Source of the DNA: Spirochaetota bacterium | GTDB taxonomy: Bacteria > Spirochaetota > Spirochaetia > Treponematales > UBA12059 | DNA: 64,000 nucleotides | Reading direction: 5' to 3' | NCBI GenBank assembly: GCA_026398615.1 | Contig: JAPLSN010000030.1 | Coordinates: forward strand, 1-64,000 | Shown here: one piece after another, positions 18,794 through 56,804 of the stretch | Position numbering within the stretch: the first letter of the stretch is position 1 | How the letters are laid out: each line of letters opens with the position of its first letter | The notes under the pieces: model-generated | What the model was told of the DNA's origin: nothing | Seen by the model: only the letters and a program-made list of their open reading frames with translations | Databases searched by the model: none | Made by a program: the position numbers and the translations under genes

Positions 18794-19839
18794 ACGTACC
18801 GGGCGCCGGAGGCGGGTACCCGGTGATCATCGGGGAGGGTCTCCTCGGCGGCGAGCTGGTCCGCCGCGTCCGTGAACGCGGCGCGCGTTCGGCCTGCGTC
18901 GTCACGAACGCCACGGTCGCGCCCCTCTATGGCGAACCGCTGGCCGCAGCGCTTCCCGGCGGCTTCCTCGCGGTCCTGCCCGACGGCGAGGAACACAAGG
19001 GGATCGAGTCGGTCCGCGCCGTCTGGGACGTTCTCGTCGCCGGAGGCGCCGACCGCGGGACGTTGATCGTGGCCCTCGGCGGCGGGGTCGTCGGCGACAC
19101 CGCCGGCTTCGCCGCCGCGACCTTCATGCGCGGGCTTCCCCTTATCCATGCACCTACGACCCTGCTGGCGATGCTGGATTCCAGCATCGGGGGGAAGACG
19201 GGCGTCAACCTCCCTGCGGGCAAGAACCTCGTGGGCGCGTTCAAGGACCCCGAAGCGGTCATCGCCGACCTTTCGACGCTCGGGACCCTGCCGGAGGTCG
19301 AACGCCGTTGCGGGCTCGCCGAAGCCATCAAGTCCGCCCTCGTCGGGGACGCCGTCCTGTTCGGGCGCCTCCTGTCAGGCGAAGCCATCCCCGCGGCAGG
19401 ACTCGTCGTCGCCGCGGCCGCCGTGAAGGTACGCCTCGTGGGGGAGGATCGGCTCGAGCACGGTTCCAGGGCGTTCCTCAACCTCGGCCATACCTTCGGC
19501 CACGCGATCGAAGCCTTGAGCGGTTTTTCCGCCAGACACGGCGAGGCCGTGGCCGTCGGGCTCGTCGCCGCGGCCAGGCTTTCCGCGCGGCTCGGGCTCT
19601 GTCCCCCGCGGCTTCCGATCGACGTTGAACGGGCGGTGGCCGGCGCCGGCCTGCCCGTCGGGACCGGAAACCTGGCTTCCGGGGCGATCCTCGACGCGAT
19701 GGGAACCGACAAGAAGTGCAGGGGCGGGGAACTTCCGTTCGTCCTCCTCGAAGACGCGGGCAAGCCCGTGCTGGTACGCGGCGTTCCCCGATCGGACCTT
19801 GCCGCCGTCCTCGACGGGATGGGGGAACGCGGGGCGTGA
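18775..19839 (+). CDS. aroB: 3-dehydroquinate synthase
   Basis: AroB converts DAHP to 3-dehydroquinate with NAD+ and a divalent metal. The 354-residue protein carries the family blocks ALGGGVVGDTAGFAAATFMR, PTTLLAMLDSSIGGKTGVN and GAFKDPEAVIADL. The metal-ligand sites are CGLAEAIKS (Glu), NLGHTFGHAIEA (His) and RHGEAVAVG (His). The start at 18775 lies inside aroK; the open frame continues further upstream but similarity begins with MEPRILNVPG. It is the last gene of the operon and converges on aroC. No obvious intrinsic terminator separates the two. Confidence 0.93.
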   Translation: MEPRILNVPGAGGGYPVIIGEGLLGGELVRRVRERGARSACVVTNATVAPLYGEPLAAALPGGFLAVLPDGEEHKGIESVRAVWDVLVAGGADRGTLIVALGGGVVGDTAGFAAATFMRGLPLIHAPTTLLAMLDSSIGGKTGVNLPAGKNLVGAFKDPEAVIADLSTLGTLPEVERRCGLAEAIKSALVGDAVLFGRLLSGEAIPAAGLVVAAAAVKVRLVGEDRLEHGSRAFLNLGHTFGHAIEALSGFSARHGEAVAVGLVAAARLSARLGLCPPRLPIDVERAVAGAGLPVGTGNLASGAILDAMGTDKKCRGGELPFVLLEDAGKPVLVRGVPRSDLAAVLDGMGERGA

Positions 19840-19889
19840 TCCGGGTGCGCGGTCGGGACGAATCACCGCGTCGGCGGATTTCACGCGGC

Positions 19890-21008
19890 TCAGATCAGTC
19901 CGTGCCGTCGGCCAGCCCTGCCCGCGACCGCGAGGCGCGATTCCTGTGCGAAAGCGAGGTCAAGGAGCGCGATGGCGGCCATCGCTTCCACGACGGGGAC
20001 CGCCCTGATCGCGACGCAGGGATCGTGGCGCCCCCGGGATTCGAGGGTCATCGGTCCGCCGTCCCAGCCCGCGGTCTCCTGCGGTCGCCCGATCGTCGGC
20101 GTCGGCTTGAAGGCGACGCGGAACCAGACCGTCTCGCCCGAGCTCACGCCGCCGAGCGAACCGCCCGCACGGTTCGTTGCCGCGCGCAGGCGGCCGTCCT
20201 GCGCGACGAACGCGTCGTTGTGGGCGGAGCCGCGCATCCGACTCGCGGCGAATCCCGAACCCAGCTCGAAGCCGCGGACGGCGGGTATGGACAGCATGGC
20301 GTGCGCGAGCAGGGCGTCCAGCTTCCCGAATACCGGCTCCCCCCAGCCCGCCGGTACGCATCGGCATGCGCAGGAGACGATGCCGCCGACGGAATCCTTG
20401 TCCGCTTTCGCAGCCTCGATCGCCGCCACCATCAGCGCCGAGGCGGCGGGGTCGGGGCACCGGCACGGGGATCGGTCCACGAGCTCACGGGTCAGGGTGT
20501 CCATGTCGGATCCGGGCGCGTCCACGTTTTCGATCGACGACACCCATGCGACGATCTCGATCCCCCAAGCCAGGCGGAGCACCTTTCCCGCCACAGCGCC
20601 CGCGGCGACGCGGCCAAGGGTTTCGCGCGCGCTCGAACGCCCGCCGCCGCCCGCGGAGAGCAGACCGTATTTCTCCCGGTATGGAAAATCCGCATGGGAC
20701 GGCCTGGGCCCGCCCGCCGCGGCGGCATAGTCGGCGGGTTTCGCGTCGGCATTGCGGACCAGGAGCGCGATCGGTGACCCGAGGGTAATCCCGTTTTCGG
20801 TTCCCGAAAGGATTTCGACGCGGTCGCTTTCGCTCCGCGTCGTGACGAGCGGGCCGGTCCCGGGCCGTCGCCGGTCGAGCTGGCCCTGGATATCGGCTTC
20901 GTCCAGCTCCATGCCCGGCGGGCAGCCGTCGATCACGGCCCCGATCCCGGCGCCGTGCGATTCCCCGAACGTGGTGACGCGGAAATGTTCCCCGAACGTG
21001 CTCGACAT
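19890..21008 (-). CDS. aroC: Chorismate synthase
   Basis: The enzyme removes phosphate from EPSP to form chorismate with reduced FMN. The 372-residue protein shows the signatures in order: GESHGAGIGAVIDGCPPG near the N-terminus, DRRRPGTGPLVTTRSESD, GGGRSSARETLGRVAAGA (the SARETA-type motif), and GRHDPCVAIRAVPVVEAM at the C-terminus. The ATG at 21008 is at the expected family start. It is transcribed toward aroB from its own promoter region, so the chorismate step is outside the attenuated operon although next to it. With aroF, B, K and A it leaves aroD/aroQ and aroE to be encoded elsewhere. Confidence 0.94.
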   Translation of the reverse strand: MSSTFGEHFRVTTFGESHGAGIGAVIDGCPPGMELDEADIQGQLDRRRPGTGPLVTTRSESDRVEILSGTENGITLGSPIALLVRNADAKPADYAAAAGGPRPSHADFPYREKYGLLSAGGGGRSSARETLGRVAAGAVAGKVLRLAWGIEIVAWVSSIENVDAPGSDMDTLTRELVDRSPCRCPDPAASALMVAAIEAAKADKDSVGGIVSCACRCVPAGWGEPVFGKLDALLAHAMLSIPAVRGFELGSGFAASRMRGSAHNDAFVAQDGRLRAATNRAGGSLGGVSSGETVWFRVAFKPTPTIGRPQETAGWDGGPMTLESRGRHDPCVAIRAVPVVEAMAAIALLDLAFAQESRLAVAGRAGRRHGLI

Positions 21009-43601: not shown

Positions 43602-44861
43602 CTATCTCGTCCTCCTGAGCACGGTGACGCAGTTGGTGACGGCGCTGCCGCCGACGTTGAAGCTGACGCCGATTTCCGGTGTCGTGGCCGGTGCCGCGCC
43701 TATCGGTTCGCCGATGAGCTGCTTGTAGAGGAGGGCGTGCATGGAGACGCCGGTGGCGCCGACGGGGTGTCCCTTGGCCTTGAGGCCGCCCGAGAGGTTG
43801 ATCGCGCAGGCAGGATCGTCCCGGTCGAAGCGGCCTTCCGCGTAGTCGTAGCCCGAGCGGCCATCCGCCGACAAGCCGAGCGCCTCGGTGCAGAGGATCT
43901 GGTTGATGGTGAAGCAATCGTGGACCTCGGCGACGCGGACATCGCCGATGGTGACTTTCGCCTCTGCGAAGGCTCGGCGGACCGCTTCCTTGCCCGCGAT
44001 GAGCTCGTACATGTTCGGCCGGACCGAAATGGCCAGGCGCTCGTTGACGTGCCCGATGCCCGCGATCTCCACGGCTTTCTTGCCGAGTCGTTTCGCGTCG
44101 TCCGTGCGCATGACCACGACGGCCGCGGCCCCGTCGGTGACGAGGGAGCAGTCGTGCAGGCGCAAGGGGTCGGCGATCATGGGATTCTTCTCGGGCGGCA
44201 AGCCGAGGACGGCTTCGGCGGTGACGAGCCGGAGCTTGTCCGAGGGGCCTCCCTTCCCGAAGTGCGCCAGCGGGTTGTCGAGGCCGTTCCGGTACCCGAG
44301 CGCCGAGACGTGGGCCAGCTGACGCGCGAGTTCATCGCCCGAAAGCCGGTAACGGTCCCGGTAGCCTTTCGCGTATTCGGCGAAGAGGCAGGGGAAGCTC
44401 ATCTCCTTCGCGCCTTCCTCGGGCCAGTAGGAGCAGGTGGCCAGCGCGTGGGTGATGCCCTTGATGTCGAGGAGGTTCATTTTCTCGACGCCCAGGACGA
44501 GTGCGATGCGCGCGCGTCCGGCTTCGACGGCGTACACCGCGTTGTAGAGCGCCACCGAGCCCGATGCGCAGGCGGCTTCGAGGCGGGTCATCATCTTGAA
44601 GCGCAGGCCCTCGGGATCGATCTCGGGGCCGAACGCGGAAAGGTGCTCCTGGTTGGCGAAGAGGCCCGGGGCGCAGGAACCCACCCAGATGCCGTCCACG
44701 TCCTTCGCGGCCACACCCGCATCGGCCAGCGCGCCGCGCCCGGCTTCGACGAAAAGTTCGTAGATGCTCTTGAGATCGGAGATCTCGCCCGTTTCCCTGT
44801 TCTTCTGCACGAAGCTTCCGAACTTCGTATTGTACGCGCCGACGATGCTTGTCGTCCCCAT
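43602..44861 (-). CDS. SCP2-type thiolase (acetyl-CoA acetyltransferase-like)
   Basis: The 419-residue protein has the thiolase fold. The nucleophile Cys is in MTRLEAACASGSVALYNAV, the first His in VAEVHDCFTINQ, and the second in LKAKGHPVGATGVSMHALL. The C-terminal Cys-x-Gly of degradative thiolases is replaced by NVGGSAVTNCVTVL, which is the pattern of SCP2/SCP-x thiolase relatives. It cleaves or condenses 3-oxoacyl-CoA. It is the last gene of the left arm, 36 bases after the CoA-transferase, and fits a CoA-ester degradation step. Chain-length specificity cannot be read from the sequence. Confidence 0.85.
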   Translation of the reverse strand: MGTTSIVGAYNTKFGSFVQKNRETGEISDLKSIYELFVEAGRGALADAGVAAKDVDGIWVGSCAPGLFANQEHLSAFGPEIDPEGLRFKMMTRLEAACASGSVALYNAVYAVEAGRARIALVLGVEKMNLLDIKGITHALATCSYWPEEGAKEMSFPCLFAEYAKGYRDRYRLSGDELARQLAHVSALGYRNGLDNPLAHFGKGGPSDKLRLVTAEAVLGLPPEKNPMIADPLRLHDCSLVTDGAAAVVVMRTDDAKRLGKKAVEIAGIGHVNERLAISVRPNMYELIAGKEAVRRAFAEAKVTIGDVRVAEVHDCFTINQILCTEALGLSADGRSGYDYAEGRFDRDDPACAINLSGGLKAKGHPVGATGVSMHALLYKQLIGEPIGAAPATTPEIGVSFNVGGSAVTNCVTVLRRTR

Positions 44862-44897
44862 CCCGTCCTCCTTCTGGTATCAGCATGCGGATAGAAT

Positions 44898-46208
44898 TCA
44901 GATATATCCGAGCGCCTTCGCCTTCGCCGTGAGATCTTCCCGGAATTCGGGGGCGGCAACCGCGATGAGGGCGAAGGTCCGTTCCCTGACCGTGCGACCC
45001 CGCAGCTTCGCGACGCCGTATTCGGTCACGACGTGGTCCACGAAGGAACGGTGCAGGCTCACCGCGCTCCCCTCGGGCAGGGTCGGGACGATGGTGCCCA
45101 CCGTTCCGCCTTTCGCGGTCGCGTAGCAGGCGATGATGGACTTGCCCAGGCCGTCGAAACCGGCCACCGCGCCCTGTGCCGTGTCGGATTGGCCGCCCGT
45201 GCCCGAATACTGGAGGGGACCAATGGACTCGCTGGCGACCTGGCCCGTGAAGTCGACCATGAGGCAGGTGTTGATCGAGACCATCCGCGAATTACGGGCG
45301 ATGACGGCGGGGTCGTTCACCCAGCGACCGCGCTGGAATTCGACGGCGACGTTGTCGTCGAGCCAGTCGTAGAGCCGTCGGCTTCCCATGGCGAAAGTGG
45401 CGATGAACTTGTCCTTCCTGAGGGCCTTGCGCCGGTTCGTGATGACGCCGAGTTCATAGAGCTCCATCAGGGAATCGACGAACATCTCCGTGTGGACGCC
45501 GAGGTCCTTCTTGTCCTTCAGGGCGAAGGCAGCGGCGTTGGGGATGCCGCCTATGCCGAGCTGGATGGTCGAACCGTCCTCGACGAGGGAAGCGATGTGT
45601 TCGCCGATGCGCAGGTCGACCGCCGAGGGTCGGGGGGTGGGGAGGGAAGGGACTTCCTGCTCGTGCTCCACGAAATACGTCACTTGCGAGACGTGGACGT
45701 GGGTGTCGCCGAAGGTGCGCGGCAGGCGCGGGTTCACCTCGAGGATGACGAAGCGGGCATGTTCGAGTATGTCCTTTTCGTAGGTGATGCCGAGCGAGAG
45801 CGAGACGAAGCCGTTGCGGTCGGGCGGCGTGCAGGTTCCGATGAAGACTTCCGGCGGCCGGGCGTGGAGCCGGTCGGTCGCGGCCCGGTGCAGCATGTTG
45901 GGCACGAAGGTGACCGTGCCGGCCCCGGCCTTGATGGCTTCGCGCGAACCGGGCGCGTGGAACCAGCTCGCCAGCTCGAAGTAGCCCTTCATCTCCGGTT
46001 TCATGTAGAAGTCGTAGGGTTTCAGGGTCAGGACCGAAAAGACCCGTACGTCGCGGACCCCGGGCGCGAGGATATGGAGCCGGGCCATCGTTCCCTGGGG
46101 CTCGCTCGCGCACTGGCCGACCGCCACGTCGAAGCCCGACTCGATGCACCGGATGGCTTCGTCGATTGGGCGAAGCCTGGACTTGTACTCGTCATCCCAT
46201 CTGGACAT
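44898..46208 (-). CDS. Acetyl-CoA hydrolase/CoA-transferase family protein
   Basis: The 436-residue protein resembles 4-hydroxybutyrate CoA-transferase and acetyl-CoA hydrolase (class I type). It has an N-terminal CoA-transferase half with FIGTCTPPDRNGFVSLSLG and a C-terminal half with the catalytic block HTEMFVDSLMELYELGV, where a Glu forms the thioester. GIGGIPNAAAFAL and SGTGGQSDTAQGAVAGF are CoA-binding loops. It should move CoA from an acyl-CoA to an acid, thus activating a substrate for the thiolase encoded next. AAGGAG precedes the ATG at 46208. Spacing to the upstream KAS III-like gene is 14 bases. Confidence 0.88.
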   Translation of the reverse strand: MSRWDDEYKSRLRPIDEAIRCIESGFDVAVGQCASEPQGTMARLHILAPGVRDVRVFSVLTLKPYDFYMKPEMKGYFELASWFHAPGSREAIKAGAGTVTFVPNMLHRAATDRLHARPPEVFIGTCTPPDRNGFVSLSLGITYEKDILEHARFVILEVNPRLPRTFGDTHVHVSQVTYFVEHEQEVPSLPTPRPSAVDLRIGEHIASLVEDGSTIQLGIGGIPNAAAFALKDKKDLGVHTEMFVDSLMELYELGVITNRRKALRKDKFIATFAMGSRRLYDWLDDNVAVEFQRGRWVNDPAVIARNSRMVSINTCLMVDFTGQVASESIGPLQYSGTGGQSDTAQGAVAGFDGLGKSIIACYATAKGGTVGTIVPTLPEGSAVSLHRSFVDHVVTEYGVAKLRGRTVRERTFALIAVAAPEFREDLTAKAKALGYI

Positions 46209-46222
46209 GGCCTGCTCCTTGT

Positions 46223-47233
46223 TCAGTACACGAAAAGGTTCGCGCCGACGGCGAAGCCGGCGCCGGAAGCGCAGAAGACCACCGTGTCGCCGCGTTTCAC
46301 GCGGCCGTCCCTGACAGCGTGATGGAACGCCATGGGCACGCAGCCGGAGCCCGTGTAGCCGTAGCGATCCATCACCATCGGCGCGAGCGCGAGGGGTCGC
46401 CCGAGCACGCCCATGACCTCCTCGATCACCGAGCGGTTGATCTGGGTGAAGACGAAGGCCCCGACCCCGTCGAGAGGTACGCCGCCCTTGTCGCAGAGCG
46501 CGCGGACGATGGGGGGCCAGAGCTTGAGGTTGCGGTCGCCGGGCAGGTTCCGGAGCAGCTCGAGGCCCCAGGTTCCCGCGTCGAGGAGCTCCCTGGTGAC
46601 CGGCTTCCGTGTGCCGCCTGCGTAGACGCCGATGTAGTCCCACTGGGTGCCGTCCGCGACGAGCTTCCCGGTGATGTAGCCCGAAGGATGCCCGTCGGGG
46701 ACGCGTTCGAGGAGGACTGCGCCGGCACCGTCGGCGAAGATCGACCAGCCGAATGCGTCTCCGGGGCGGATGTGCGCGGGCATGTCGTACACGCCGACGA
46801 CCACCGCGTAGTTCAGCGAGGGGTCACCCGCGACCATGAGCGCGGCCGCGTCGAGCGCCGTCACGAAGCTGGCGCAGGAGGCGCCGACGTCGAAGGCGCC
46901 TGCGTCGCGCTGGCCGCCCTGGATCCTGCCCTGGACGAGGATGGCCGTGGCTGGCGAGACATATTCGGGGGTGTCGGTGCCGACCACGAAAAGCCCCACG
47001 TCCATCGGGTCGACGCCCGCGTCGGCTATGGCCGCGCGTGCCGCCCTCTCCGCGAAGTCCGCGGTGGTCTCGTCGATGCCGCGCAGGCGCGCGACGTGGC
47101 GGGTCCTGATGCCGACCTTGGCCTCGAGCCGCTCGGTGTCGAACTCGACGCCCGCAAGGCGCTTGAGTTCCCCGTTGTCGATGGGGGCGCCGGGCGCGTA
47201 GATGCCCGTCCCCGCGATGCGCGCTTTCGCCAT
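46223..47233 (-). CDS. KAS III-like enzyme with atypical active site
   Basis: The 336-residue protein has the ketoacyl synthase III fold with Cys120 in AFDVGASCASFVTALD. The His of the usual HQAN is absent: the segment reads VFTQINRSVIEEVM. The NxGNTS region reads DRYGYTGSGCVPMAFHHAV. The catalytic set is therefore Cys plus altered partners, so classical malonyl-ACP condensation is doubtful. Related proteins act as acyltransferases, condensing enzymes or HMG-CoA-synthase-like enzymes. The second of two adjacent ATGs (47233) fits the GGAGG distance. The start overlaps the stop of the TetR gene. Confidence 0.78.
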   Translation of the reverse strand: MAKARIAGTGIYAPGAPIDNGELKRLAGVEFDTERLEAKVGIRTRHVARLRGIDETTADFAERAARAAIADAGVDPMDVGLFVVGTDTPEYVSPATAILVQGRIQGGQRDAGAFDVGASCASFVTALDAAALMVAGDPSLNYAVVVGVYDMPAHIRPGDAFGWSIFADGAGAVLLERVPDGHPSGYITGKLVADGTQWDYIGVYAGGTRKPVTRELLDAGTWGLELLRNLPGDRNLKLWPPIVRALCDKGGVPLDGVGAFVFTQINRSVIEEVMGVLGRPLALAPMVMDRYGYTGSGCVPMAFHHAVRDGRVKRGDTVVFCASGAGFAVGANLFVY

Positions 47234-48462
47234 CATGCCCCTCCGTGCGGCTGGTCCCGTTCCGCGAAGCGCCCGTCCTCGGAGAGGCCGGCGGCCTTTC
47301 CGGAGGAGAACCCCCCCGCGAGCTTCTGCCCTATTCCCTCGATGAGCGCCCTGGCGTTTTCCGGGGAATGGTCGAATACGATCTCGATGCCGAAGTAATG
47401 CGAAACGCCTAGCAGGAAGTTGATCCGCGTCGGGGCGTCCGGCCCTTCGATCGCGTCGGTTCCGTGGCGGTAACCCCGCTCGAAGGCGTCGTAATATTCC
47501 TTTACCTTGTCGGGAAGGACGAACTCGGCTTCGCGGACGATGTTGTAGCAGTACCGGTCGATGGACAGGAAGATCGAGAAGAGCCATATCCCCTGCATTT
47601 CGCGCTCCAGGCGGTTGAGGCCGGGCAAGAGGTTCGACGTTATGAAATGCCGGACTTCGCGTCCGACGAGCCCGATCAACTCCGCGTAGAAGCATTCCTT
47701 GGACGGGAACCAGAGGTAGAAGGATCCGACGGAGAGGCCCGCGGCGTCCGTGATCTCGTGGATGTTGGCTTCGTGGTAGCCGCGTTCGCCGAAGAGGCGC
47801 TTGCCCGCCTGGAGCAGGCGCTCGCGGGCTGCCGGGGCCGCGACGATGACGGGTGGCCGCACCTCGATCTCGAAGACCTTCGCGACATCGAACGTCAAAC
47901 CCGGGAAGGCTCCGTTCTCGAGCACGTTCACCACGACCCCAGGATCCAGCGGCGTCCCCTGGAGCGACCGGCGGATGTTCGTGAACCGGATGCCGCCCAG
48001 CGCGAAGAGGTAGTCGGCGAGCGAGCAGTCCCTGCCGAGGGCGGCGGAAAGGGCGCGACGGTAGATCTCCATGAGGGCGCGCTCGTAGTCGAAGAAGCGG
48101 TACTGTCCTTCGCGGAAAATGGCGATGAGGTCGGGATGGGCTTCCGTGTAGGCGGAGAGGCGATCGACGAAGTTCGAGAGGCGTCCGTGACGGCTGGAGC
48201 CGGAGAGTTCGCGGAGCTCCGATTCTATGGAGGCGAGTATTTCGCCGAGGAGCTTGCGGAAAAGTTCTTCCTTGTTCCGGTAGTATCTATAGAAAAGCCC
48301 GTTCGAGACTCCCGCCTCGCGGCATATCTCGGCGACGGAGACGGTCGCGTACCAGTGGGTGCTGAAGAGCTGGATCGCGGCACGCTCGAGTCGCTCGCCG
48401 GTCGGAACTTTTTCGGGTTCCCCGGGCCGCGTCTCGATCTTGCTCCTGTGATCCGCTGTCAT
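47233..48462 (-). CDS. Tandem TetR-family regulator (two DNA-binding domains)
   Basis: The 409-residue protein is twice the normal TetR length. The first HTH (about 21-72) contains TVSVAEICREAGVSNGLFYR and the second (about 210-262) NIHEITDAAGLSVGSFYLWF. Each is followed by a helical ligand or dimer region. It begins at the ATG at 48462, with CAGGAGC upstream. It heads the left operon and shares a 225-base divergent region with the right operon, so it likely represses both in the absence of an acyl-type ligand. The two HTH segments are clearly different, which argues for an old fusion and against a recent duplication. Confidence 0.85.
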   Translation of the reverse strand: MTADHRSKIETRPGEPEKVPTGERLERAAIQLFSTHWYATVSVAEICREAGVSNGLFYRYYRNKEELFRKLLGEILASIESELRELSGSSRHGRLSNFVDRLSAYTEAHPDLIAIFREGQYRFFDYERALMEIYRRALSAALGRDCSLADYLFALGGIRFTNIRRSLQGTPLDPGVVVNVLENGAFPGLTFDVAKVFEIEVRPPVIVAAPAARERLLQAGKRLFGERGYHEANIHEITDAAGLSVGSFYLWFPSKECFYAELIGLVGREVRHFITSNLLPGLNRLEREMQGIWLFSIFLSIDRYCYNIVREAEFVLPDKVKEYYDAFERGYRHGTDAIEGPDAPTRINFLLGVSHYFGIEIVFDHSPENARALIEGIGQKLAGGFSSGKAAGLSEDGRFAERDQPHGGA

Positions 48463-48687
48463 GCCTGCTCCTGGTGCCAAGTATGGATACTAAATAAGAA
48501 CTGAATCACTATTCATATGCAGAGTGTATATCCCTTATCGTTTCCCCGCAAGAAAAATTGTCAGAAAACTCTTGGAACGATTAACAAGTTCGAATTATTC
48601 TATTTATTCTGGAAAATTATGCTTGACTGATTATAGAAAGTGGATAATGCTTTAATGAGAGGTGATTCATCTCTCTTTGGAGTATTC
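48463..48687. promoter_or_regulatory. Divergent control region of the two acyl-pathway operons
   Basis: This AT-rich 225-base stretch contrasts with the GC-rich genes. On the plus strand TTGACT (48623-48628) is followed by TAATGC after 16 bases, a weak promoter match. A hairpin (GAGAGGTG/CATCTCTC, 48657-48664 with 48668-48675) lies in the probable leader, before the KAS III-like gene. I did not find a convincing long TetR palindrome by eye. Confidence 0.5.
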
Positions 48688-49746
48688 ATGCATATTGGCA
48701 TAATCGGGCACGGTATCTATCTGCCATCCACCTACATGAGCGCCGCCGAGCTTGCCCGGGCCACGGGGGTTCCCGAAGACGTGGTCGCCTGCAAGTTCGG
48801 CGTCAGGCGCAAGCCGGTCGCCGGCCCGGAAGATTCGACTGCAGAAATGGGGCTCAAGGCGGCGCGTGCGGCGCTCGCGGACGCGAAGCTCGATGGCTCG
48901 GCCGTCGACCTCGTGATCTGGTGCGGAGCCCAGCACAAGGATTACCCCTGCTGGCTCGCTGGCCTCTATGTTTCCGAAAAGATCGGCGCGACAAAGGCCT
49001 GGAGCTTCGACATGGAGGCAATGTGCGGCTCCATGATGGTCGCGCTCGACGTGGCCAGGAGCCTCATGCTCGCCCGCGAGGATCTCGGCACCGTCCTTCT
49101 CGTTTCGGGCTATCGCAACAACGACCTCATCGACCTGGCCGATCCGGCCACGCGTTTCATGATGGACATCGGCTCGGGCGGCGCGGCCCTCGTCTTGCGG
49201 AAAAACGCGGGGCGCAACGCGGTCCTCGCGAGCGCCTTCCGGGGCGACGGGTCCTTCAGCGAGCTGTGCGTGGTGCCCGTGCTCGGTTCCAGGGCATGGC
49301 CGCCTCAACCTGCCGACGCCGCCAGGCCCTTCTTCAAGGTTCCCGACGCGGAAGCTTTCAAGTCGAAGCTGGCGGAGCGGACATTCCCGAATTTCTACGC
49401 CGTCATACGCGAGGCGCTTCGCCGATCGGGCAAGCCCGAAAAGGGCGGCATCGACTATCTGGCCATACTCCACTTCAAGAAGAGTGCCCACGACGCGGTG
49501 CTTGCCGAGTTGGGGCTCCGGCCGGAGCAGACGACCTACCTCGACGAGTACGGCCACATCGGGCAGAACGACCAGGTCCTCTCGCTGGAACTCGGCCTGG
49601 CTGCCGGGAAGATCAGGGACGGATCCACCGTGGTATTCGTCGGTGCGGGTCTTGGCTTCGTCTGGGCATCGACCGTCATCGCCTGGGGTCCCTGCACCGA
49701 GCCCGCGTCGGCGGAAACAGCGCACGCAAACAACGCGCAAGCATGA
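48688..49746 (+). CDS. Second KAS III-like enzyme with atypical active site
   Basis: The 352-residue protein begins MHIGIIGHGIYLPSTYMSAA and carries the nucleophile Cys113 in SFDMEAMCGSMMVALDV. The expected HQAN region reads YLAILHFKKSAHD, where the His is kept but not the Asn. The NxGNTS segment reads YLDEYGHIGQNDQVLSLEL. It differs from the other KAS III-like protein of the locus in all these sites, so the two are not recent duplicates. A role in cleaving or forming C-C bonds of a CoA or ACP ester is plausible. The start at 48688 is preceded by GGAG. It is the first gene of the right operon. Confidence 0.75.
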   Translation: MHIGIIGHGIYLPSTYMSAAELARATGVPEDVVACKFGVRRKPVAGPEDSTAEMGLKAARAALADAKLDGSAVDLVIWCGAQHKDYPCWLAGLYVSEKIGATKAWSFDMEAMCGSMMVALDVARSLMLAREDLGTVLLVSGYRNNDLIDLADPATRFMMDIGSGGAALVLRKNAGRNAVLASAFRGDGSFSELCVVPVLGSRAWPPQPADAARPFFKVPDAEAFKSKLAERTFPNFYAVIREALRRSGKPEKGGIDYLAILHFKKSAHDAVLAELGLRPEQTTYLDEYGHIGQNDQVLSLELGLAAGKIRDGSTVVFVGAGLGFVWASTVIAWGPCTEPASAETAHANNAQA

Positions 49747-49762
49747 CCGTGAGGAGCAATCG

Positions 49763-50497
49763 ATGGATAGGATGAAGGGAAAGACCTGCGTCGTCACGGG
49801 TGGCGCGCGCGGCATCGGCAGGGGCATCGTCGAAACCCTGGCCCGCGAGGGCGCGAAGCGCGTCTGGGCCCTCGACGTCAACGACGCGGGGTTCGCCGAG
49901 CTCGAGAAGGCCTGGCCGAACGTGAAGGGCGCCATCGTCGACGTGACGGACAGCGCGAGCGTCGCGGCCTTCGTCGGGAAGGCCGGGGCCGAGGACATCG
50001 ACGTCCTCGTGAACAACGCCGGCATCACCAGGGACGCCCTCATCCAGAAGATGCAGGATGCCGACTGGGCGGCCGTCATCGCCGTCAATCTGACCGGCGT
50101 CTTCAACATGACGCGGGCGGTCGCTCCCCTCATGATGGAGAAGGGTTCGGGATCGATCGTGAGCATCAGTTCGGTGGTCGGACTCGACGGGAATATCGGG
50201 CAGTCCAACTATGCTGCCACCAAGGGCGGCGTGGTCGCCATGACCAAGGGCTGGGCCAAGGAGTTCGCACGCAAGGGCGCCAGGGTCCGCGTCAACGCGG
50301 TGAGTCCGGGCTACACCCGGACCCCGATGCTGGAAAGCGTGCCCGAAAAGGTTCTCGAGCCGATCATCGCGAAGACTCCCCTGGGCCGCCTCGCCGAGAT
50401 CCAGGACATCGCCGACGCGGTGCTCTTCCTCTCCAGCGAGGAAGCCGCCTTCATCACGGGTCAGGTCCTTCGCGTCGATGGCGGGCTTGTACTGTGA
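49763..50497 (+). CDS. SDR-family oxidoreductase (3-oxoacyl-ACP/CoA reductase-like)
   Basis: The 244-residue protein has the classical short-chain dehydrogenase layout: VVTGGARGIGRGIVETLA (cofactor loop TGxxxGxG), NNAGITRD, the catalytic Ser in SISSVVGLDGN, and the YxxxK pair in SNYAATKGG. PGYTRTPMLESV and DGGLVL close the fold. ALDVND at the end of strand two, with an Asp, favours NAD(H) over NADP(H). It may oxidise a 3-hydroxyacyl thioester or reduce a 3-oxo one. GAGGAG precedes the ATG at 49763, which follows the KAS III-like gene by 16 bases. Confidence 0.9.
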   Translation: MDRMKGKTCVVTGGARGIGRGIVETLAREGAKRVWALDVNDAGFAELEKAWPNVKGAIVDVTDSASVAAFVGKAGAEDIDVLVNNAGITRDALIQKMQDADWAAVIAVNLTGVFNMTRAVAPLMMEKGSGSIVSISSVVGLDGNIGQSNYAATKGGVVAMTKGWAKEFARKGARVRVNAVSPGYTRTPMLESVPEKVLEPIIAKTPLGRLAEIQDIADAVLFLSSEEAAFITGQVLRVDGGLVL

Positions 50498-50621
50498 TGG
50501 AAGCCTTGCCGTGTCGACGCGACGTCGATGGCGGGCCGGAATATGCCGCTGACGTGGAACGGTAGCGGAAGACAGGCAAAACCGGACGCGTGGGCGTCCG
50601 TCATTCTCGAGGAGGCAAAAG

Positions 50622-51827
50622 ATGAAGAGGACATTCGCGATCCTGGTGATCGCCATGCTCGCGACCGGCGCGTTCGCCCAAACCGGCGACACGATCAAGA
50701 TCGGCGGTATCTGGACTCTCGCCGATATCACGGGAAAGCAAGGCAGCATGGCCGCCCAGCAGGCGATCGAGGAGATCAACAAGGCTGGAGGCGTGCTCGG
50801 CAGGAAGCTCGAGCTCATCGTGGTCGATGACGAGGGCAAAGCCGACAAAGGCGCGGCGGCGGTCGAAAAACTGATGACCGTCGACAATGTGGAATTGCTC
50901 ATGGGCGGGATGGCGAGCGGGGTCGAACTCGGCAAGATCCCCACATTCAAGAAGTACGGCAAGGTGGTCGTCTCCACCGGCGCCGCAAGCTACAAGGTCG
51001 AGGAAGCCCTCGGCGCCGACTCGTCCTGGTACTTCCACCTGCATCCCTGGGATTACAATCAAGGCGCGAGCTATGTCGAAGGTTGGGACGCGATCCAGAA
51101 GCAATATCCCAAGATAAAGATAAAGAAGATCTTCCTCGCCTACGAGGAAGGCGCCTTCGGCAAATCCTCCTGGGACGCTACCAAGACGCTCTTCGGGACG
51201 GGTGGACGCTATGTGGTCGATGGCGCGTCGTTCAAGAGCGCCGCCCTCGGCGGCGGCGATTACGCGTCCGTCCTGGAAGCGGCCAAATCCTTCAAGCCGG
51301 ACCTCTTCCTCTGGGCCGGTTACGACGCCGACGCCCTACCCATGCTCGAGCAGGCCAAGGCGATGAAGTTCAGCCCATCCATCTATCTCGGGGCGCCCCC
51401 CGGATGGCCGATCGGATTCGGCACTTCCAAATTGTCCGAGAAGGTGATGCTGTACGGCATGTGGGCTCCGACCATGAATGATACCAATGCCGCCAGCAAG
51501 GCTTTCTACAAAGGATTTGTCGCCAAGTACAAGGAAGAACCCGCCACCTATTTCGCACCCCTTTCCTACTCGGCCGTCTACATCATCGCCGATGCCATCA
51601 AGCTTGCCGGAACGACCGAAACCGCGGCTTTGATCAAAGCCCTCGAGGCCACCAAGTACGCCTCGCCCCTGGGTGAAACCATCTCGTTTTCCAAGTCCAA
51701 TATCATCGCCCACCAGGGTATCCGCCGGCAGAAGATCCTTCAGTGGCAGAGCGGCCGCCAGGAAGTCATCTGGCCGTTCGAGGCCAAGACCGCGACCCCC
51801 GTCTATCCTTTCCCCGCGTGGAAGTGA
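50622..51827 (+). CDS. LIV-type ABC transporter substrate-binding protein
   Basis: The 401-residue protein has a signal peptide (MKRTFAILVIAMLATGAFA) and a type I periplasmic-binding fold of the branched-chain amino acid/amide group: IKIGGIWTLADITGKQGSMA, a GRKLELIVVDDEGKADKGAA segment and the hinge after GGMASGVELGKIP. It delivers ligand to the LivH-M-G-F transporter encoded after it. Many members bind aromatic or acyl compounds and not amino acids, which fits the enzymes of this locus. AGGAGG precedes the start. A 77-base gap with a strong hairpin follows. Confidence 0.88.
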   Translation: MKRTFAILVIAMLATGAFAQTGDTIKIGGIWTLADITGKQGSMAAQQAIEEINKAGGVLGRKLELIVVDDEGKADKGAAAVEKLMTVDNVELLMGGMASGVELGKIPTFKKYGKVVVSTGAASYKVEEALGADSSWYFHLHPWDYNQGASYVEGWDAIQKQYPKIKIKKIFLAYEEGAFGKSSWDATKTLFGTGGRYVVDGASFKSAALGGGDYASVLEAAKSFKPDLFLWAGYDADALPMLEQAKAMKFSPSIYLGAPPGWPIGFGTSKLSEKVMLYGMWAPTMNDTNAASKAFYKGFVAKYKEEPATYFAPLSYSAVYIIADAIKLAGTTETAALIKALEATKYASPLGETISFSKSNIIAHQGIRRQKILQWQSGRQEVIWPFEAKTATPVYPFPAWK

Positions 51828-51850
51828 GAAAGTCGATTCACTGATTCGAT

Positions 51851-51878
51851 GCCGCCGCCGGGGTCGCCCGGCGGCGGC
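51851..51878 (+). terminator. Intercistronic hairpin between binding-protein and permease genes
   Basis: A perfect 12-pair GC stem (GCCGCCGCCGGG with CCCGGCGGCGGC, loop GTCG) is not followed by a T-run. Such a hairpin commonly stabilises or partly terminates the upstream message so that the binding protein is made in excess of the membrane parts. Confidence 0.65.
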
Positions 51879-51904
51879 GTGATTCCGGCAACAAAGGAAG
51901 CCAG

Positions 51905-52828
51905 ATGGCAATGAAACGTCGTACGACGATTTTGGTCGTCCTCGGCCTCGCGGCCGCTTTCCTGGTGGCGCTCTGGAAGCCGACCGTCCTCATCTACGGC
52001 GTTCAGCAGGCCGGTCTCTACGCGGCGATCGCGATCCCCATGGGTCTTGTCCTCGGCATCGTCCATATCGTGAACCTGGCGCACGGCGAGTTCATGATGG
52101 TCGCGGCCTACGCCACCTACTTCGCCTGCCGGGCTACCGGCCTCGATCCCCTTCTCGCCGTGCTCCCGTCCGCGGCCGTGACCGCTCTGCTCGGCTGGGT
52201 CGTCTACAAGCTGACCATCCGCCGGGCGCTGAAAGCGCCCGAACTCAACCAGCTCATCCTCACCTTCGGCATCGGTATATTGCTGAGCCAGGGCGTGAAC
52301 CTGCTCTTCACCTCGCAGACCCGCAAGATCTCGCTCGAATACGTCTCGGCTTCGATGACCATAGGCGAGCTTTCGTTCGGCGTCTGGCCCTTCGTCTTCG
52401 TGATCGTCGCGACGGCGATGGCCGTCGGCCTCAAGCTCTTCCTCACCAGGACCACGACGGGCAAGGCCGCCCTCGCGGTCGGGCAGAATCCCCGGGGCGC
52501 GGCGATCGTCGGCATCGACGTCGACCGAACCTACGGCCTCGTCTTCGCCCTGGCCATGGCCCTCGTAGGCGGCATGGGCGCCCTCTTCCTCACGCGCTCG
52601 GCCATCTTCCCCGGCGTCGGGGGGCCCTTCACCATGAAGAGCTTCTGCCTCGTCGCCATGGCCGGCATCGGCAACATCCCCGGCATCCTCGGAGCCAGCC
52701 TGCTCCTCGGACTTTCCGAGAGCTTCCTGCGCGCCTTCCGCGAACTCCGCGGCTGGGCGGACATCATCTTCTTCGTCCTCATCATCGTGGTCATCCTCGG
52801 GCGCTCGCTGAAGGGGAGGAAGTCGTGA
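51905..52828 (+). CDS. livH: LIV-type ABC transporter permease
   Basis: The 307-residue protein has eight hydrophobic segments and the LivH-type features: AAIAIPMGLVLGIVHIVNLA near the N-terminus, followed by HGEFMMVAAYATYF, and the cytoplasmic coupling loop with AALAVGQNPRGAAIVGIDVD. It forms one half of the transporter pore with LivM. The gene is linked to livM by a four-base overlap. The symbol indicates family position only; leucine as substrate is not implied. Confidence 0.88.
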   Translation: MAMKRRTTILVVLGLAAAFLVALWKPTVLIYGVQQAGLYAAIAIPMGLVLGIVHIVNLAHGEFMMVAAYATYFACRATGLDPLLAVLPSAAVTALLGWVVYKLTIRRALKAPELNQLILTFGIGILLSQGVNLLFTSQTRKISLEYVSASMTIGELSFGVWPFVFVIVATAMAVGLKLFLTRTTTGKAALAVGQNPRGAAIVGIDVDRTYGLVFALAMALVGGMGALFLTRSAIFPGVGGPFTMKSFCLVAMAGIGNIPGILGASLLLGLSESFLRAFRELRGWADIIFFVLIIVVILGRSLKGRKS

Positions 52829-53760
52829 ACAGGAACCTGCTTCGACTGGCCGCCGCACTCGCCGGGGCAGCGGCCGTCGCCTTGCCCGCCTTCGCGGGCG
52901 CCTACCCGCTCCAGGTGGCGCGCAACGTCATCATGTACATGGCGCTCGCGATCACCTGGGACATGCTGCTCCGTTCGGGACAGATATCCTTCGGCATCGC
53001 GGGTCTCTTCGGCATAGGCGCCTACGCCGCGGTGCTCGGAGTCCTTCGCGCCGGAATGTCCCCCTGGCTCAGCATCGCGTTCGCGGCCGCCTTCGCGGGC
53101 GCCGCGTCCTTCCTCATCGGATTCCTGATCTTGCGCCTTCGCACGATGTATTTCTCGATCGTGACACTCGCGCTGGCCGAGATTTTCCGCATCGTCATCC
53201 ACAATCTCCCCGAATTCACGGGCGGCCCCGAGGGCGTCGTCCTCGAAGGGGTCATCATGAAAGGTTCGGCGTCCGGCCTGTACTGGCTGACCCTCGGCGG
53301 CCTGGCCGTCGCGCTGGCGGCCTCGTGGGGGTTCGAGAAAAGCAGGATGCATTTCGCCCTCACCGCCATCCGCAACAACGAGACGAGCGCGAAGTCGAGC
53401 GGCATCGACATCTTCCGCTGGCTGCTCGTCGCCTTCGTCGTCACCTCGTCCATCCAGGGCCTGCTCGGCGGCATCTACGTGCAGTCCTACGGCTTCGCGA
53501 CGCCCGACAGCGTCTTCGACGCGAACTTCACGCTGCTGCCCCTGGCCATGGCTCTTCTCGGAGGCATCCATAGCACGATCGGCCCGGTCCTCGGGGCCAT
53601 ATTGCTCGGGCTCGCGGCAGAGTGGCTGAAGCTCCGGATTCCCTACGGCCACCTGGTCGTGTACGGGATCATCATCATCGTCGTGATCCTGTTCATGCCC
53701 AAGGGGCTCTACGGGCTCGCCCGAAAGGTCTCGGGAGCCGCCGATCGGAGGAGAGCGTGA
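52825..53760 (+). CDS. livM: LIV-type ABC transporter permease
   Basis: The 311-residue protein starts at GTG and has eight to ten hydrophobic segments, with the LivM-type GQISFGIAGLFGIGAYAAVL motif and the EAA-like coupling loop FALTAIRNNETSAKSSGIDI. PTLVFD-type transport segments agree in order with the family. It dimerises with LivH. Its stop overlaps the GTG start of livG, so all transporter genes from livH to livF are linked without gaps. Confidence 0.88.
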   Translation: MNRNLLRLAAALAGAAAVALPAFAGAYPLQVARNVIMYMALAITWDMLLRSGQISFGIAGLFGIGAYAAVLGVLRAGMSPWLSIAFAAAFAGAASFLIGFLILRLRTMYFSIVTLALAEIFRIVIHNLPEFTGGPEGVVLEGVIMKGSASGLYWLTLGGLAVALAASWGFEKSRMHFALTAIRNNETSAKSSGIDIFRWLLVAFVVTSSIQGLLGGIYVQSYGFATPDSVFDANFTLLPLAMALLGGIHSTIGPVLGAILLGLAAEWLKLRIPYGHLVVYGIIIIVVILFMPKGLYGLARKVSGAADRRRA

Positions 53761-54476
53761 CCAAGCTGAAAATCGAAAGACTCACAAGGTGCTTCCAGGG
53801 CCTTGTCGCCCTGAACGACGTTTCGTTCTCGATGGAGGAGGGGGAAATCCTCGGCATCATCGGGCCGAACGGAGCGGGAAAGACGACCTTCATCAACCTC
53901 GTATCCGGCATCATCATGCCGAGCTCGGGTCGGATCGAGTACAAGGGCAGGGACATCACGTATGCACCCGCGCACGAACGCGCCCGCCTGGGCATCGCGC
54001 GCACATACCAGCTGATCCACCCGCTCGAGAACCTGAGCCTCATCGAGAACGTCATGGTCGGCTCCATTTTCGCGAGGGGGAACGGCCTCAAGGCCGCCCG
54101 CCGCAAGGCCAGGGACCTGTGCGCCGCGCTCGGGCTCGAGAACCTCGGGCGCGACACATCGAAGCTCACCATACTGGAAATCAAGAAAATGGAGATCGCG
54201 CGGGCCCTCGCCAACGAGCCGGAAGTCCTCCTCCTCGACGAGGTGATGGCAGGGCTCAACTCGGACGAGACCAGGCTGCTCATCGGCATGGTCCAGTCCG
54301 TCGCGAAGGAGCGCTGCCTCGCGGTCGGCGTCGTCGAGCACGTGATGGGCGTCATCCGCGAGCTCACGCACCGCGTCATCGTCCTCGAAGCCGGCGAACT
54401 CATCGCCCAGGGGCCCTACGAGGAAGTCTCGAAGAACCCGCGCGTCATCGAAGCGTACCTCGGAGGGGCGGCATGA
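53757..54476 (+). CDS. livG: LIV-type ABC transporter ATPase
   Basis: The 239-residue ATPase uses a GTG start at 53757. Walker A is IIGPNGAGKTTFINLVSG and the Q-loop region is IARTYQLIHPLENLSLIEN. Walker B is VLLLDEVMAGLNSDETRLL and the switch His is in VGVVEHVMGVIRELTHR. The signature reads LTILEIKKMEIARAL, where the usual LSxGQ is changed to LTILE, a weak form seen in some LivG proteins. The LivG-type C-terminal tail NPRVIEAYLGGAA closes it. It pairs with LivF to power the importer. Confidence 0.88.
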   Translation: MTKLKIERLTRCFQGLVALNDVSFSMEEGEILGIIGPNGAGKTTFINLVSGIIMPSSGRIEYKGRDITYAPAHERARLGIARTYQLIHPLENLSLIENVMVGSIFARGNGLKAARRKARDLCAALGLENLGRDTSKLTILEIKKMEIARALANEPEVLLLDEVMAGLNSDETRLLIGMVQSVAKERCLAVGVVEHVMGVIRELTHRVIVLEAGELIAQGPYEEVSKNPRVIEAYLGGAA

Positions 54477-55177
54477 TCCTCGACGTCAAAAAGCTCGAAA
54501 CCGGCTACGGCAGGCTCAGGGTGCTGACAGGCGTCGACCTGTCGGTCGGCAGGGAGTCGGTCGGCCTCTTCGGCCCGAACGGCGCCGGGAAGACGACGCT
54601 CATCAACACGATCATGGGCATCAACAAGCCCTGGTCGGGCGTGGTCACGTTCGACGGTCAGGATATCGGCGGCAAGGCGACCCACCTGGTCGCGCGCGCG
54701 GGCATCGCGCTGGTACCCCAGGAACGCGAGCTGTTCCCCGGAATGAGCGTGGCCGACAACCTGGAACTCGGCGCGGCCTACGTGCCGCGCGCCGCGGGTA
54801 TCGGGAAACGCCAGCTCGACATGGTGCTCCAGCTCTTCCCGATCCTCAAGGAACGATACAGACAGCTCGTGGGAACCATGTCGGGAGGGCAGCAGCGCAT
54901 GGTCGCGATCGGCCGCGCGCTCATGGCGAACCCGCTCCTCCTCATCCTCGACGAGCCTTCGCTCGGGCTCCAGCCGTCCATCGTGGCGGAAGTCTTCGAA
55001 CGGCTTGCCCGGCTCAAGAAGGAGATCGCGATCCTCGTCACCGAGCAGAACGTCCGCGAAAGCCTCAAGGCGATAGACCGCGGCTACGTGCTCGAAAACG
55101 GGGCGGTCGCCCTCCGGGACACGGCGGAGGGGCTCGCGAAGAACCCGCACGTCGTGTCAGCCTACCTGGGGATATAG
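54473..55177 (+). CDS. livF: LIV-type ABC transporter ATPase
   Basis: The 234-residue ATPase has Walker A LFGPNGAGKTTLINTIMG, a Q-loop region (ALVPQERELFPGMSVADNLE), the canonical signature GTMSGGQQRMVAIGRAL, Walker B LLLILDEPSLGLQP and switch region VTEQNVRESLKAIDRGYVLE. It completes the LivHMGF set. It overlaps livG by four bases and is followed after two bases by the first alpha/beta hydrolase, which confirms a single operon. Confidence 0.9.
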   Translation: MILDVKKLETGYGRLRVLTGVDLSVGRESVGLFGPNGAGKTTLINTIMGINKPWSGVVTFDGQDIGGKATHLVARAGIALVPQERELFPGMSVADNLELGAAYVPRAAGIGKRQLDMVLQLFPILKERYRQLVGTMSGGQQRMVAIGRALMANPLLLILDEPSLGLQPSIVAEVFERLARLKKEIAILVTEQNVRESLKAIDRGYVLENGAVALRDTAEGLAKNPHVVSAYLGI

Positions 55178-55179
55178 GC

Positions 55180-56019
55180 ATGGACACCCTCGTCGCCGGA
55201 GGCGTCAGCATCGCGTACGAAGTCGCGGGCGAAGGACCCCGCGGCGAGACCGTCGCCCTGCTCAACGGGATCGCCATGTCCATGGGGCACTGGAAGCCCG
55301 TCGCGGCCGCGCTGGCAGCCTCTGGCTTCCGGGTCCTGCTCCACGACATGCGCGGCCAACTCCTTTCCGACAAGCCCGCGGGGCCATACTCCTTCGAGGA
55401 GCACGCGCGGGACTTGCTTGCGCTGCTCGACGCGACGGGGACAGAGCTCGTCCACCTCGTGGGCACATCGTACGGCGCCGAGGCGGCGCTCTGCTTCGCG
55501 CGGGACTTTCCGGGGCGGACCGCAAGCCTCTGCATGATCGACGGGGTCTGCGAGCTTGATGCCGTCCTCGTCGCCGCGGTCGATTCCTGGAAGCGCGCCG
55601 CGCTTTCCGATCCCTCGCTCTTCTACCGCGTCATCCTGCCCTGGAACTACTCGCCAGAGTGGCTCGCCGCGAACTCAGGCTTCGTCGCCTCGCGCGAAGC
55701 GGCCGTGGCGTCCCTGCCCCGGGAGTATTTTGAAGCCTTCGTACGCCTCTGCGACGCCTTCCTCGCCATCGATCTCAGGAAGGACATCGCCAGGATCCGG
55801 ACGCCGACGCTCGTCGCCGTCGCGGAATTCGACATCCTCAAGGGCGAGCGTTTCGCGAAGGTCATGGCAGAGGGCATAGCAGGCGCTCATTACAGGAAGA
55901 TTGTCGGCGCTGGCCACGCGGTCGTCATCGAAAAGCCGGGCGAGGTCTCGCGCCTCATCCTCGAATTCCTCGGGAGCATCGGATCCACGAAGGGTCCAGG
56001 GCAGGAGGAAGCGTCATGA
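55180..56019 (+). CDS. Alpha/beta-fold hydrolase
   Basis: The 279-residue protein has the nucleophile elbow VHLVGTSYGAEAAL (Ser in GTSYG) and an oxyanion-side segment LLNGIAMSMGHWKPVAA. The acid residue lies in VAVAEFDILKG, where Asp follows a beta strand, and the catalytic His in VGAGHAVVIEKPGEV. The cap region is helical (SWKRAALSDPSLFYRVILPW). It resembles 3-oxoadipate enol-lactonase and meta-cleavage hydrolases, which open lactones or C-C bonds next to keto groups. Substrate unknown. It overlaps the next hydrolase gene by four bases. Confidence 0.85.
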   Translation: MDTLVAGGVSIAYEVAGEGPRGETVALLNGIAMSMGHWKPVAAALAASGFRVLLHDMRGQLLSDKPAGPYSFEEHARDLLALLDATGTELVHLVGTSYGAEAALCFARDFPGRTASLCMIDGVCELDAVLVAAVDSWKRAALSDPSLFYRVILPWNYSPEWLAANSGFVASREAAVASLPREYFEAFVRLCDAFLAIDLRKDIARIRTPTLVAVAEFDILKGERFAKVMAEGIAGAHYRKIVGAGHAVVIEKPGEVSRLILEFLGSIGSTKGPGQEEAS

Positions 56020-56804
56020 AGGAATGCACGATTCTGGTCGGGGGGCTGTCCATGTTCTTCGTCGCGGCCGGCTCGGGCGTTCCCGTGCTTTTCGTGCACG
56101 GGAACATCGGCTCGAGCCGCTGGTGGGCGGGATCCATGGACCTGCCCGGGTACAGGACGGTCGCGGTCGACATGCCGAATTTCGGCCGCTCCGATCCGTT
56201 GCCCGGTTGGTCGGCTGAAAGCGCCGACCTGGCAGCCTACGCGGAATACCTGGCGCTCTTCATCGAAGCCTCGGGACTCGAACGGCCCATCGTCGTCGCG
56301 CACTCGCTTGGCGGCGCCGTCGCGCAGGCCCTGGTCGCCGCGCGGCCGGACCTGGTCCGCGCCCTCGTCCTGGTGGATTCCGGTCCGCCATCGGGCCTCG
56401 TCACGCCGAAGGAGCGCCACCCCGCCATCGAGGCGATGAGGACGAATCCGGCCATCCTCTCGATGGCGCTCAAGGCCGTCGTTCCGACCATGAAAGACGA
56501 CGCATGGTTCGCGGGACTTGCGGCCGATGCGCGGCTGATGGCGGAACCTGCATGGATAGGGAACGCTGAAGCCCTCTCGCGCTTCGATTGCCGGGGCAGG
56601 CTGGATTCGTTCGCGAAGGCAGTTCTCGTGGTCTGGGGCCGGAAGGACGTCATCGTCACCGAGGCCATGGCGCGCGAGACCGCGGCCGCCTTCCCGAACG
56701 CCAGGCTCGAGGTCGTCGAGACGGTGGGTCATTCGATCATGGTCGAGGATCCCGGGCTCTGGAAAAACATCCTGGAGCGCTTCCTCGACGCAGCTGCGCG
56801 GTAG
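56016..56804 (+). CDS. Alpha/beta-fold hydrolase
   Basis: The 262-residue protein shows HGNIGSSRWWAGSMDLPG as the oxyanion strand and turn, the nucleophile in PIVVAHSLGGAVAQALVA, the Asp in VVWGRKDVIVTEAMA and the His in ETVGHSIMVEDPGLW. These match the catalytic triad of esterases, lactonases and meta-cleavage product hydrolases. It differs from the preceding hydrolase in cap and in the elbow (AHSLGG versus GTSYG), so the two probably act on different intermediates. It is the last gene of the right operon. Confidence 0.85.
   Translation: MKECTILVGGLSMFFVAAGSGVPVLFVHGNIGSSRWWAGSMDLPGYRTVAVDMPNFGRSDPLPGWSAESADLAAYAEYLALFIEASGLERPIVVAHSLGGAVAQALVAARPDLVRALVLVDSGPPSGLVTPKERHPAIEAMRTNPAILSMALKAVVPTMKDDAWFAGLAADARLMAEPAWIGNAEALSRFDCRGRLDSFAKAVLVVWGRKDVIVTEAMARETAAAFPNARLEVVETVGHSIMVEDPGLWKNILERFLDAAAR

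Follow-up and report, generated by a model that had tools for sequence, protein, structure and literature searches.

A divergent gene cluster in a spirochaetal genome

Positions 43602–56804 of a 64,000-nucleotide stretch of DNA from a Spirochaetota bacterium (hereafter the window, which is part of a 66-kb contig) hold 13 intact genes, all with open frames, in two divergent operons. Their products include two unusual proteins with the fold of 3-oxoacyl-acyl carrier protein (ACP) synthase III (KAS III), here called KAS1 and KAS2, together with an ATP-binding cassette (ABC) importer, a coenzyme A (CoA)-transferase and two α/β hydrolases. The source genome (3.38 Mb, 99% complete) has Spirochaetota metagenome-assembled genomes (MAGs) as its closest relatives. 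A first-pass annotation, made from the sequence without database searches, had described at least 11 genes in two tight divergent operons; all 13 are confirmed here, and the arrangement recurs in dozens of genomes. The minus operon encodes, in order, a tandem TetR regulator, KAS1, the CoA-transferase and an SCP2-type thiolase. The plus operon encodes KAS2, a short-chain dehydrogenase/reductase (SDR), the importer components LivJ, LivH, LivM, LivG and LivF, and hydrolases 1 and 2. The gene families are backed by Pfam and NCBIfam, and several adjacent genes, such as those for KAS1 and TetR, overlap by 4 bases. Catalytic motifs are in place in the CoA-transferase, the SDR, the thiolase and both hydrolases. 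The features are as follows.

43602–44861, minus strand: SCP2-type thiolase-like protein; Cys98, His365 and the HDCF motif retained
44898–46208, minus strand: CoA-transferase of the butyryl-CoA:acetate/4-hydroxybutyrate type; catalytic Glu of GVHTEM retained
46223–47236, minus strand: KAS1, KAS III-fold protein; Cys121-Thr264-Tyr294 in place of Cys-His-Asn
47233–48462, minus strand: tandem TetR regulator; two TetR_N domains in a single chain
48494–48516: operator copy 1, palindrome ATAAGAACTGAATCACTATTCAT, 5′ of the TetR gene
48655–48677: operator copy 2, palindrome ATGAGAGGTGATTCATCTCTCTT, directly 5′ of KAS2 and downstream of a TTGACT −35-like box at 48623
48688–49746, plus strand: KAS2, KAS III-fold protein of NF005308/PRK06840; triad Cys113-His262-His290
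49763–50497, plus strand: SDR oxidoreductase, similar to FabG and acetoacetyl-CoA reductase; Ser-Tyr-Lys and GxxxGIG intact
50622–51827, plus strand: LivJ, periplasmic binding protein of the LIV/HAAT type
51905–52828, plus strand: LivH-type permease
52825–53760, plus strand: LivM-type permease, fused to a hydrolase in other lineages
about 53757–54476, plus strand: LivG-type ATPase
54473–55177, plus strand: LivF-type ATPase
55180–56019, plus strand: α/β hydrolase 1; nucleophile elbow GTSYG; closest to the named 3-oxoadipate enol-lactonase families, though under their cut-offs
56016–56804, plus strand: α/β hydrolase 2; nucleophile elbow AHSLGG; its homologue is the one fused to LivM elsewhere

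Two KAS III-fold families with altered catalytic triads

Single-chain fold models of KAS1 and KAS2 were obtained with a mean pLDDT of 90 each, and the top Foldseek matches of both are FabH structures (TM-score about 0.8–0.9), which places both proteins in the KAS III fold. Neither qualifies as FabH by score (178 bits for KAS1 and 112 bits for KAS2 versus the PRK09352/fabH cut-offs of 249), and neither carries the Cys-His-Asn triad of that enzyme. The Escherichia coli FabH residues C112-H244-N274 align with C121-T264-Y294 in KAS1 and with C113-H262-H290 in KAS2. The altered sites remarked on in the first-pass annotation are therefore real, and they are invariant within each family (33 KAS1 sequences and 40 KAS2 sequences, the latter set including haloarchaea). 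This invariance suggests that KAS1 and KAS2 are settled enzyme families and not decaying copies of FabH. KAS2 is a member of NF005308/PRK06840 (426.8 bits against a curated cut-off of 315, over positions 3–337 of 339), and KAS1 scores above no NCBIfam cut-off. A normal housekeeping FabH gene is present on another contig of the source genome, and for this reason a housekeeping role in fatty-acid synthesis was rejected for both proteins.

Given the established mechanism of FabH, the loss of Asn from both sites argues against a condensation driven by malonyl decarboxylation. KAS2 keeps the acyl-binding Cys and the His but lacks the Asn of FabH. Its most likely activity is therefore movement of an acyl group with no decarboxylation, through C-acyl transfer or thiolysis in the direction of cleavage or through acyl exchange to CoA.

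The first-pass annotation had treated both KAS III-like proteins as defining the cluster, a view that holds for KAS2 but not for KAS1. No KAS1 match was obtained in G300, a Thermotogota genome that has the cluster, and this identifies KAS2 as the core enzyme of the module. Moreover, two distant spirochaete genomes have a solitary KAS1 orthologue (L144:8983-9999 and L145:9481-10485; 61% identical) with no importer or CoA-transferase nearby. Together these observations weaken the idea of KAS1 as an obligatory partner of KAS2.

Conservation across phyla

Scanning genome contigs with a KAS2 alignment yielded 80 loci in Spirochaetota, Acidobacteriota and Thermotogota, so that the grouping is kept well beyond the source genome. 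Gene content was counted in the 42 loci that extend 4 kb or more upstream and 8 kb or more downstream of KAS2. A CoA-transferase (39 of 42), an α/β hydrolase (39), a Liv ATPase (38) and the tandem TetR (32) are the most constant members, followed by KAS1 (23), a recognisable thiolase of the window type (21) and the SDR (21), all of these being lower bounds because Holophagaceae and Thermotogota versions are partly divergent and a simple open-reading-frame layout misses genes. By genome, KAS2 is found in 11 of 296 Spirochaetota, in 8 of 199 members of the phylum containing Geothrix and in 52 of 103 members of the phylum containing Fervidobacterium and Kosmotoga. Of the 296 Spirochaetota genomes, 12 gave a KAS1 match, and every one of the 11 with KAS2 is among them (hypergeometric p = 4e-19, with kinship ignored).

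A reduced version occurs on haloarchaeal plasmids (Halobaculum, Salarchaeum and Halomicrococcus), where a KAS2 homologue with 37–40% identity stands at the end of a Liv importer operon, mostly beside a CoA ligase, an α/β hydrolase and a MaoC hydratase. A Chloroflexota plasmid carries, in a row, genes for an SDR, a KAS1-like protein, a CoA-transferase, a thiolase, a DUF35 protein, a hydrolase and a Liv importer. In a maximum-likelihood tree of KAS2, the Holophagaceae sequences are nested within Spirochaetota, beside the KAS2 of the window (support for the joint group, 99/97), which indicates transfer between phyla.

Several loci show further peculiarities. A frame resembling a group II intron-type reverse transcriptase lies between the Liv importer genes and KAS2 in one locus (L022:8135-9424). 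In three haloarchaeal loci (L128, L129 and L126), a SufS-like pyridoxal phosphate (PLP) enzyme and a type 1 glutamine amidotransferase are inserted between the regulator and the importer, and L126 also has a tryptophanase upstream. Two record labels look doubtful: the KAS2 tree places L069 (JAJTBC010000278.1), titled 'Bacillota bacterium', with Holophagaceae, and L090 (DYJT01000002.1), titled 'Brachyspira murdochii', comes from a genome that shares its family and genus with an Exilispira MAG.

An operator confined to the cluster

The divergent intergenic regions have in common a 23-bp palindrome, GTGAGAGGTGAWTCACCTCTCAC, with 94 sites in 49 regions and exactly two sites in 43 of these. Across 1.39 Mb of related loci, 137 sites were found, nearly all at KAS2, TetR, LivJ, CoA-transferase or SDR genes, and 593 kb of shuffled sequence gave none. 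A pattern search allowing up to three mismatches found only the two window sites in the whole 3.38-Mb source genome (control pattern, 0). These results suggest that the regulon of the tandem TetR consists of the cluster and little else, and hence that it corresponds to the pathway or to a specific part of it. With two sites in the whole genome, a wider regulon is ruled out as a clue to the substrate.

The regulator chain of the window contains two TetR_N stretches, and the palindrome adjoins its gene. Position and conservation point to the tandem TetR as the protein that would bind the palindrome. Many loci have in common a TTGAC box immediately upstream of the site nearer KAS2, an arrangement consistent with repression. 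In locus L081, a sodium:solute symporter and a 148-residue partner (18798-20755) lie behind a weaker operator copy, next to an extra TetR; this symporter is possibly an alternative importer of the same substrate.

Permease–hydrolase fusions and exchange of CoA-activating enzymes

The transporter has the LivJ-H-M-G-F components of a LIV/HAAT-type ABC importer. LivJ has only remote relatives in the PDB, from which a ligand class is not readable, and some relatives of the cluster use a second type of binding protein. In at least nine distinct lineages of Spirochaetota and Thermotogota, the LivM permease and a homologue of hydrolase 2 form one reading frame, and both fused frames scanned contain Pfam BPD_transp_2 and Abhydrolase_1. 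The fused frames are as follows.

L093:10628-12388 and L095:19109-20872 (Thermotogota): branched-chain-type permease fused to α/β hydrolase
L085:10115-11878, L088:9011-10759, L090:14774-16537 and L037:15010-17352: permease–hydrolase
L074:15682-17412, L091:15229-17286, L099:16933-18639 and L105:8081-9838: permease–hydrolase

This fusion ties hydrolysis to import, and the imported compound is most likely what the hydrolase works on.

The CoA-activating enzyme itself is exchanged between lineages. In the spirochaetal locus L082, an AMP-forming CoA ligase gene lies directly behind a strong, near-perfect operator (score 20.7), and no CoA-transferase gene was found on that 9-kb contig. A CoA ligase also adjoins Liv–KAS2 in Halobaculum and Salarchaeum. 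The swap of transferase for ligase suggests that the constant function is CoA activation and that the substrate is a carboxylic acid. Moreover, Holophagaceae and haloarchaea have an additional MaoC hydratase, and in Thermotogota the SCP2-type thiolase is replaced by one of the acetyl-CoA C-acetyltransferase type. Both features point to 3-hydroxyacyl-CoA and 3-oxoacyl-CoA chemistry that ends in acetyl-CoA.

Proposed pathway and alternative explanations

The locus is probably a dedicated, repressor-controlled catabolic module in which an imported organic acid or ester is cut to acetyl-CoA. The LIV-type importer would take up the acid, either free or as a hydrolysable derivative such as an ester or lactone, and the α/β hydrolase at the permease would hydrolyse it. 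The CoA-transferase, or the CoA ligase in some relatives, would then form the CoA thioester, the SDR would oxidise the 3-hydroxy to the 3-oxo level, and KAS2 (with KAS1 where present) and the thiolase would complete C–C cleavage to acetyl-CoA, which could pay for the CoA-transferase step. The tandem TetR would repress both operons through the two palindrome copies, presumably until the substrate or its CoA ester frees it from them. We infer this order of steps, the role of KAS2, the repression and the nature of the inducer from the gene set. The first-pass annotation had proposed uptake and breakdown of an external acyl, lactone or diketone compound, with the KAS III-like enzymes perhaps working in the cleavage direction. 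The conservation, the fusions, the transferase–ligase swap and the dedicated operator speak for import, for hydrolysis, for CoA activation and for a catabolic route towards acetyl-CoA; a lactone or diketone substrate and the cleavage direction would be possibilities within this scheme.

Several points weigh against this assignment. Substrate class, product and activity are predictions from the genes. The direction of the KAS step, the weakest link, is deduced only from residues, and PqsC-like and CerJ-like enzymes show that such residue changes also suit biosynthetic acyl transfer. KAS1 may have another role, given its solitary genes and the absence of a match to it in G300. In addition, the second type of binding protein in some relatives may mean that the imported compound varies.

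We propose, more tentatively, that the module represents a catabolic pathway not described before. Its KAS III-fold enzyme, in which the triad is rebuilt, would be degradative (by retro-Claisen cleavage or acyl exchange) and would act on a compound hydrolysed by an importer-fused enzyme. Such a pathway would extend over Spirochaetota, Holophagaceae and some half of the Thermotogota, and haloarchaea would have a version that uses a CoA ligase. Searches of the open-licence literature found no description of a pathway with this gene set, as the first-pass annotation had also stated, and nothing relevant on KAS III-like enzymes acting with a CoA-transferase or thiolase in degradation or on tandem TetR regulators. 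According to their record titles, many relatives were obtained from anoxic sediments, lakes, digesters and hot reservoirs. The compound taken up is therefore likely to be abundant in nature, and anaerobes are not yet known to use it in this way.

The main role known for KAS III enzymes is to build carbon chains. If confirmed, a family that is widespread, catabolic and marked by a different, conserved triad would change the reading of many '3-oxoacyl-ACP synthase' annotations. The cluster poses a real metabolic question that can be tested: the permease–hydrolase fusion offers a direct handle, as the hydrolase substrate is most likely the importer's cargo, the ligand of one binding protein together with one hydrolase could solve the pathway, and the 23-bp operator is a ready reporter.

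A special case of the catabolic module, which we regard as unlikely, is the breakdown of imported (R)-3-hydroxy acid oligoesters, such as polyhydroxyalkanoate (PHA) fragments, or of similar esters of hydroxy acids. The hydrolases would split the ester, the SDR or MaoC would handle the (R)-3-hydroxyacyl unit, the CoA-transferase and thiolase would finish the route, and KAS2, as an acyl-enzyme, would pass an acyl group from the ester to CoA. The resemblance of the SDR to PhaB and FabG fits this scheme, as do MaoC in some lineages, the hydrolase tethered to the permease and the acetyl-CoA C-acetyltransferase-like thiolase of Thermotogota. Hydrolase 2 has PDB matches that include poly(3-hydroxybutyrate) depolymerases, and its score against the family of intracellular PHA depolymerases is 96 bits. 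However, this is far under the cut-off of 300, and a 3-oxoadipate enol-lactonase family scores as high. Furthermore, a CoA-dependent hydroxybutyrate route requires no KAS III enzyme.

A biosynthetic operon, in which KAS1 and KAS2 would condense the CoA ester of an imported acid into a polyketide-, quinolone- or lipid-like product in the manner of PqsBC or OleA, appears quite improbable. In its favour, most enzymes with a KAS III fold catalyse condensation, the structures matched by KAS2 include PqsC and OleA, and triads without Asn occur in PqsC. By contrast, the hallmarks of catabolism are present: a dedicated importer with a fused hydrolase, a thiolase, a CoA-transferase and a repressor whose regulon is local. 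No carrier protein, CoA carboxylase or exporter was recognised within the operons.

Little credence can be given to an anaerobic route of the phloroglucinol/triacetate type, comprising hydrolysis of a 1,3-diketone, a dehydrogenase, a CoA-transferase and a thiolase, even though the step types fit and Holophaga is a known degrader of trihydroxybenzenes. Of the enzymes of the characterised cluster, the SDR type alone has a counterpart in the block (PMC10470551). Least credible is the import of branched-chain amino acids that would feed branched-chain acyl primers to KAS III for fatty-acid synthesis: the importer is of the LIV type and LivJ distantly matches Leu/Ile/Val-binding proteins, with the Asp of GYDAD aligned near their Glu, but the conserved block is without an aminotransferase or a branched-chain 2-oxoacid dehydrogenase, the decarboxylation Asn is lost in both KAS proteins, the genome has its normal FabH, and the hydrolases and the CoA-transferase would go unexplained.

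Comparison with known systems

KAS1 and KAS2 resemble FabH in fold and in the position of the Cys; they differ from it in that both His and Asn are replaced in KAS1 and Asn is replaced by His in KAS2. By score, KAS2 qualifies for the equivalog model NF005308/PRK06840, '3-oxoacyl-ACP synthase'. For this named family a tested function was not found, and the context of importer, CoA activation and hydrolase, as well as the C-H-H triad, lies outside what the name conveys.

PqsBC offers a parallel, as two unlike KAS III-fold proteins work in one system and PqsC, its catalytic member, has lost the Asn. However, the sequence relation is remote (46 bits between KAS2 and PqsC, with only remote matches for either KAS protein), KAS1 keeps its Cys, and the cluster context is catabolic. 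The pairing of an SCP2-type thiolase with a KAS III-fold protein recalls the complexes of thiolase, HMG-CoA synthase and DUF35 and those of PhlACB. The best PDB match of the window thiolase is an archaeal acetoacetyl-CoA thiolase (6esq), and the PDB entries 9vbo and 9vbt are named as PhlB-family complexes. A DUF35-type complex was nevertheless rejected, as the whole source genome has no match to DUF35 (PF01796).

The characterised phloroglucinol cluster of Clostridium scatologenes uses phloroglucinol reductase, a Mn-dependent cyclohydrolase of the 'cyclase' family and a β-keto acid cleavage enzyme, and it shares with the present cluster the logic of anaerobic cleavage to acetyl-CoA, whereas the enzyme families for hydrolysis and C–C cleavage differ (PMC10470551). 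Neither the cyclase-family cyclohydrolase nor the β-keto acid cleavage enzyme is among the cluster proteins scanned with Pfam and NCBIfam, and the phloroglucinol pathway was rejected on account of these different enzymes. Set beside these systems, the locus is probably a regulated cluster for uptake and CoA-dependent catabolism, made up of known families around a KAS III core and, in some lineages, with a permease–hydrolase fusion; no description of such a cluster was found in the open-licence literature.

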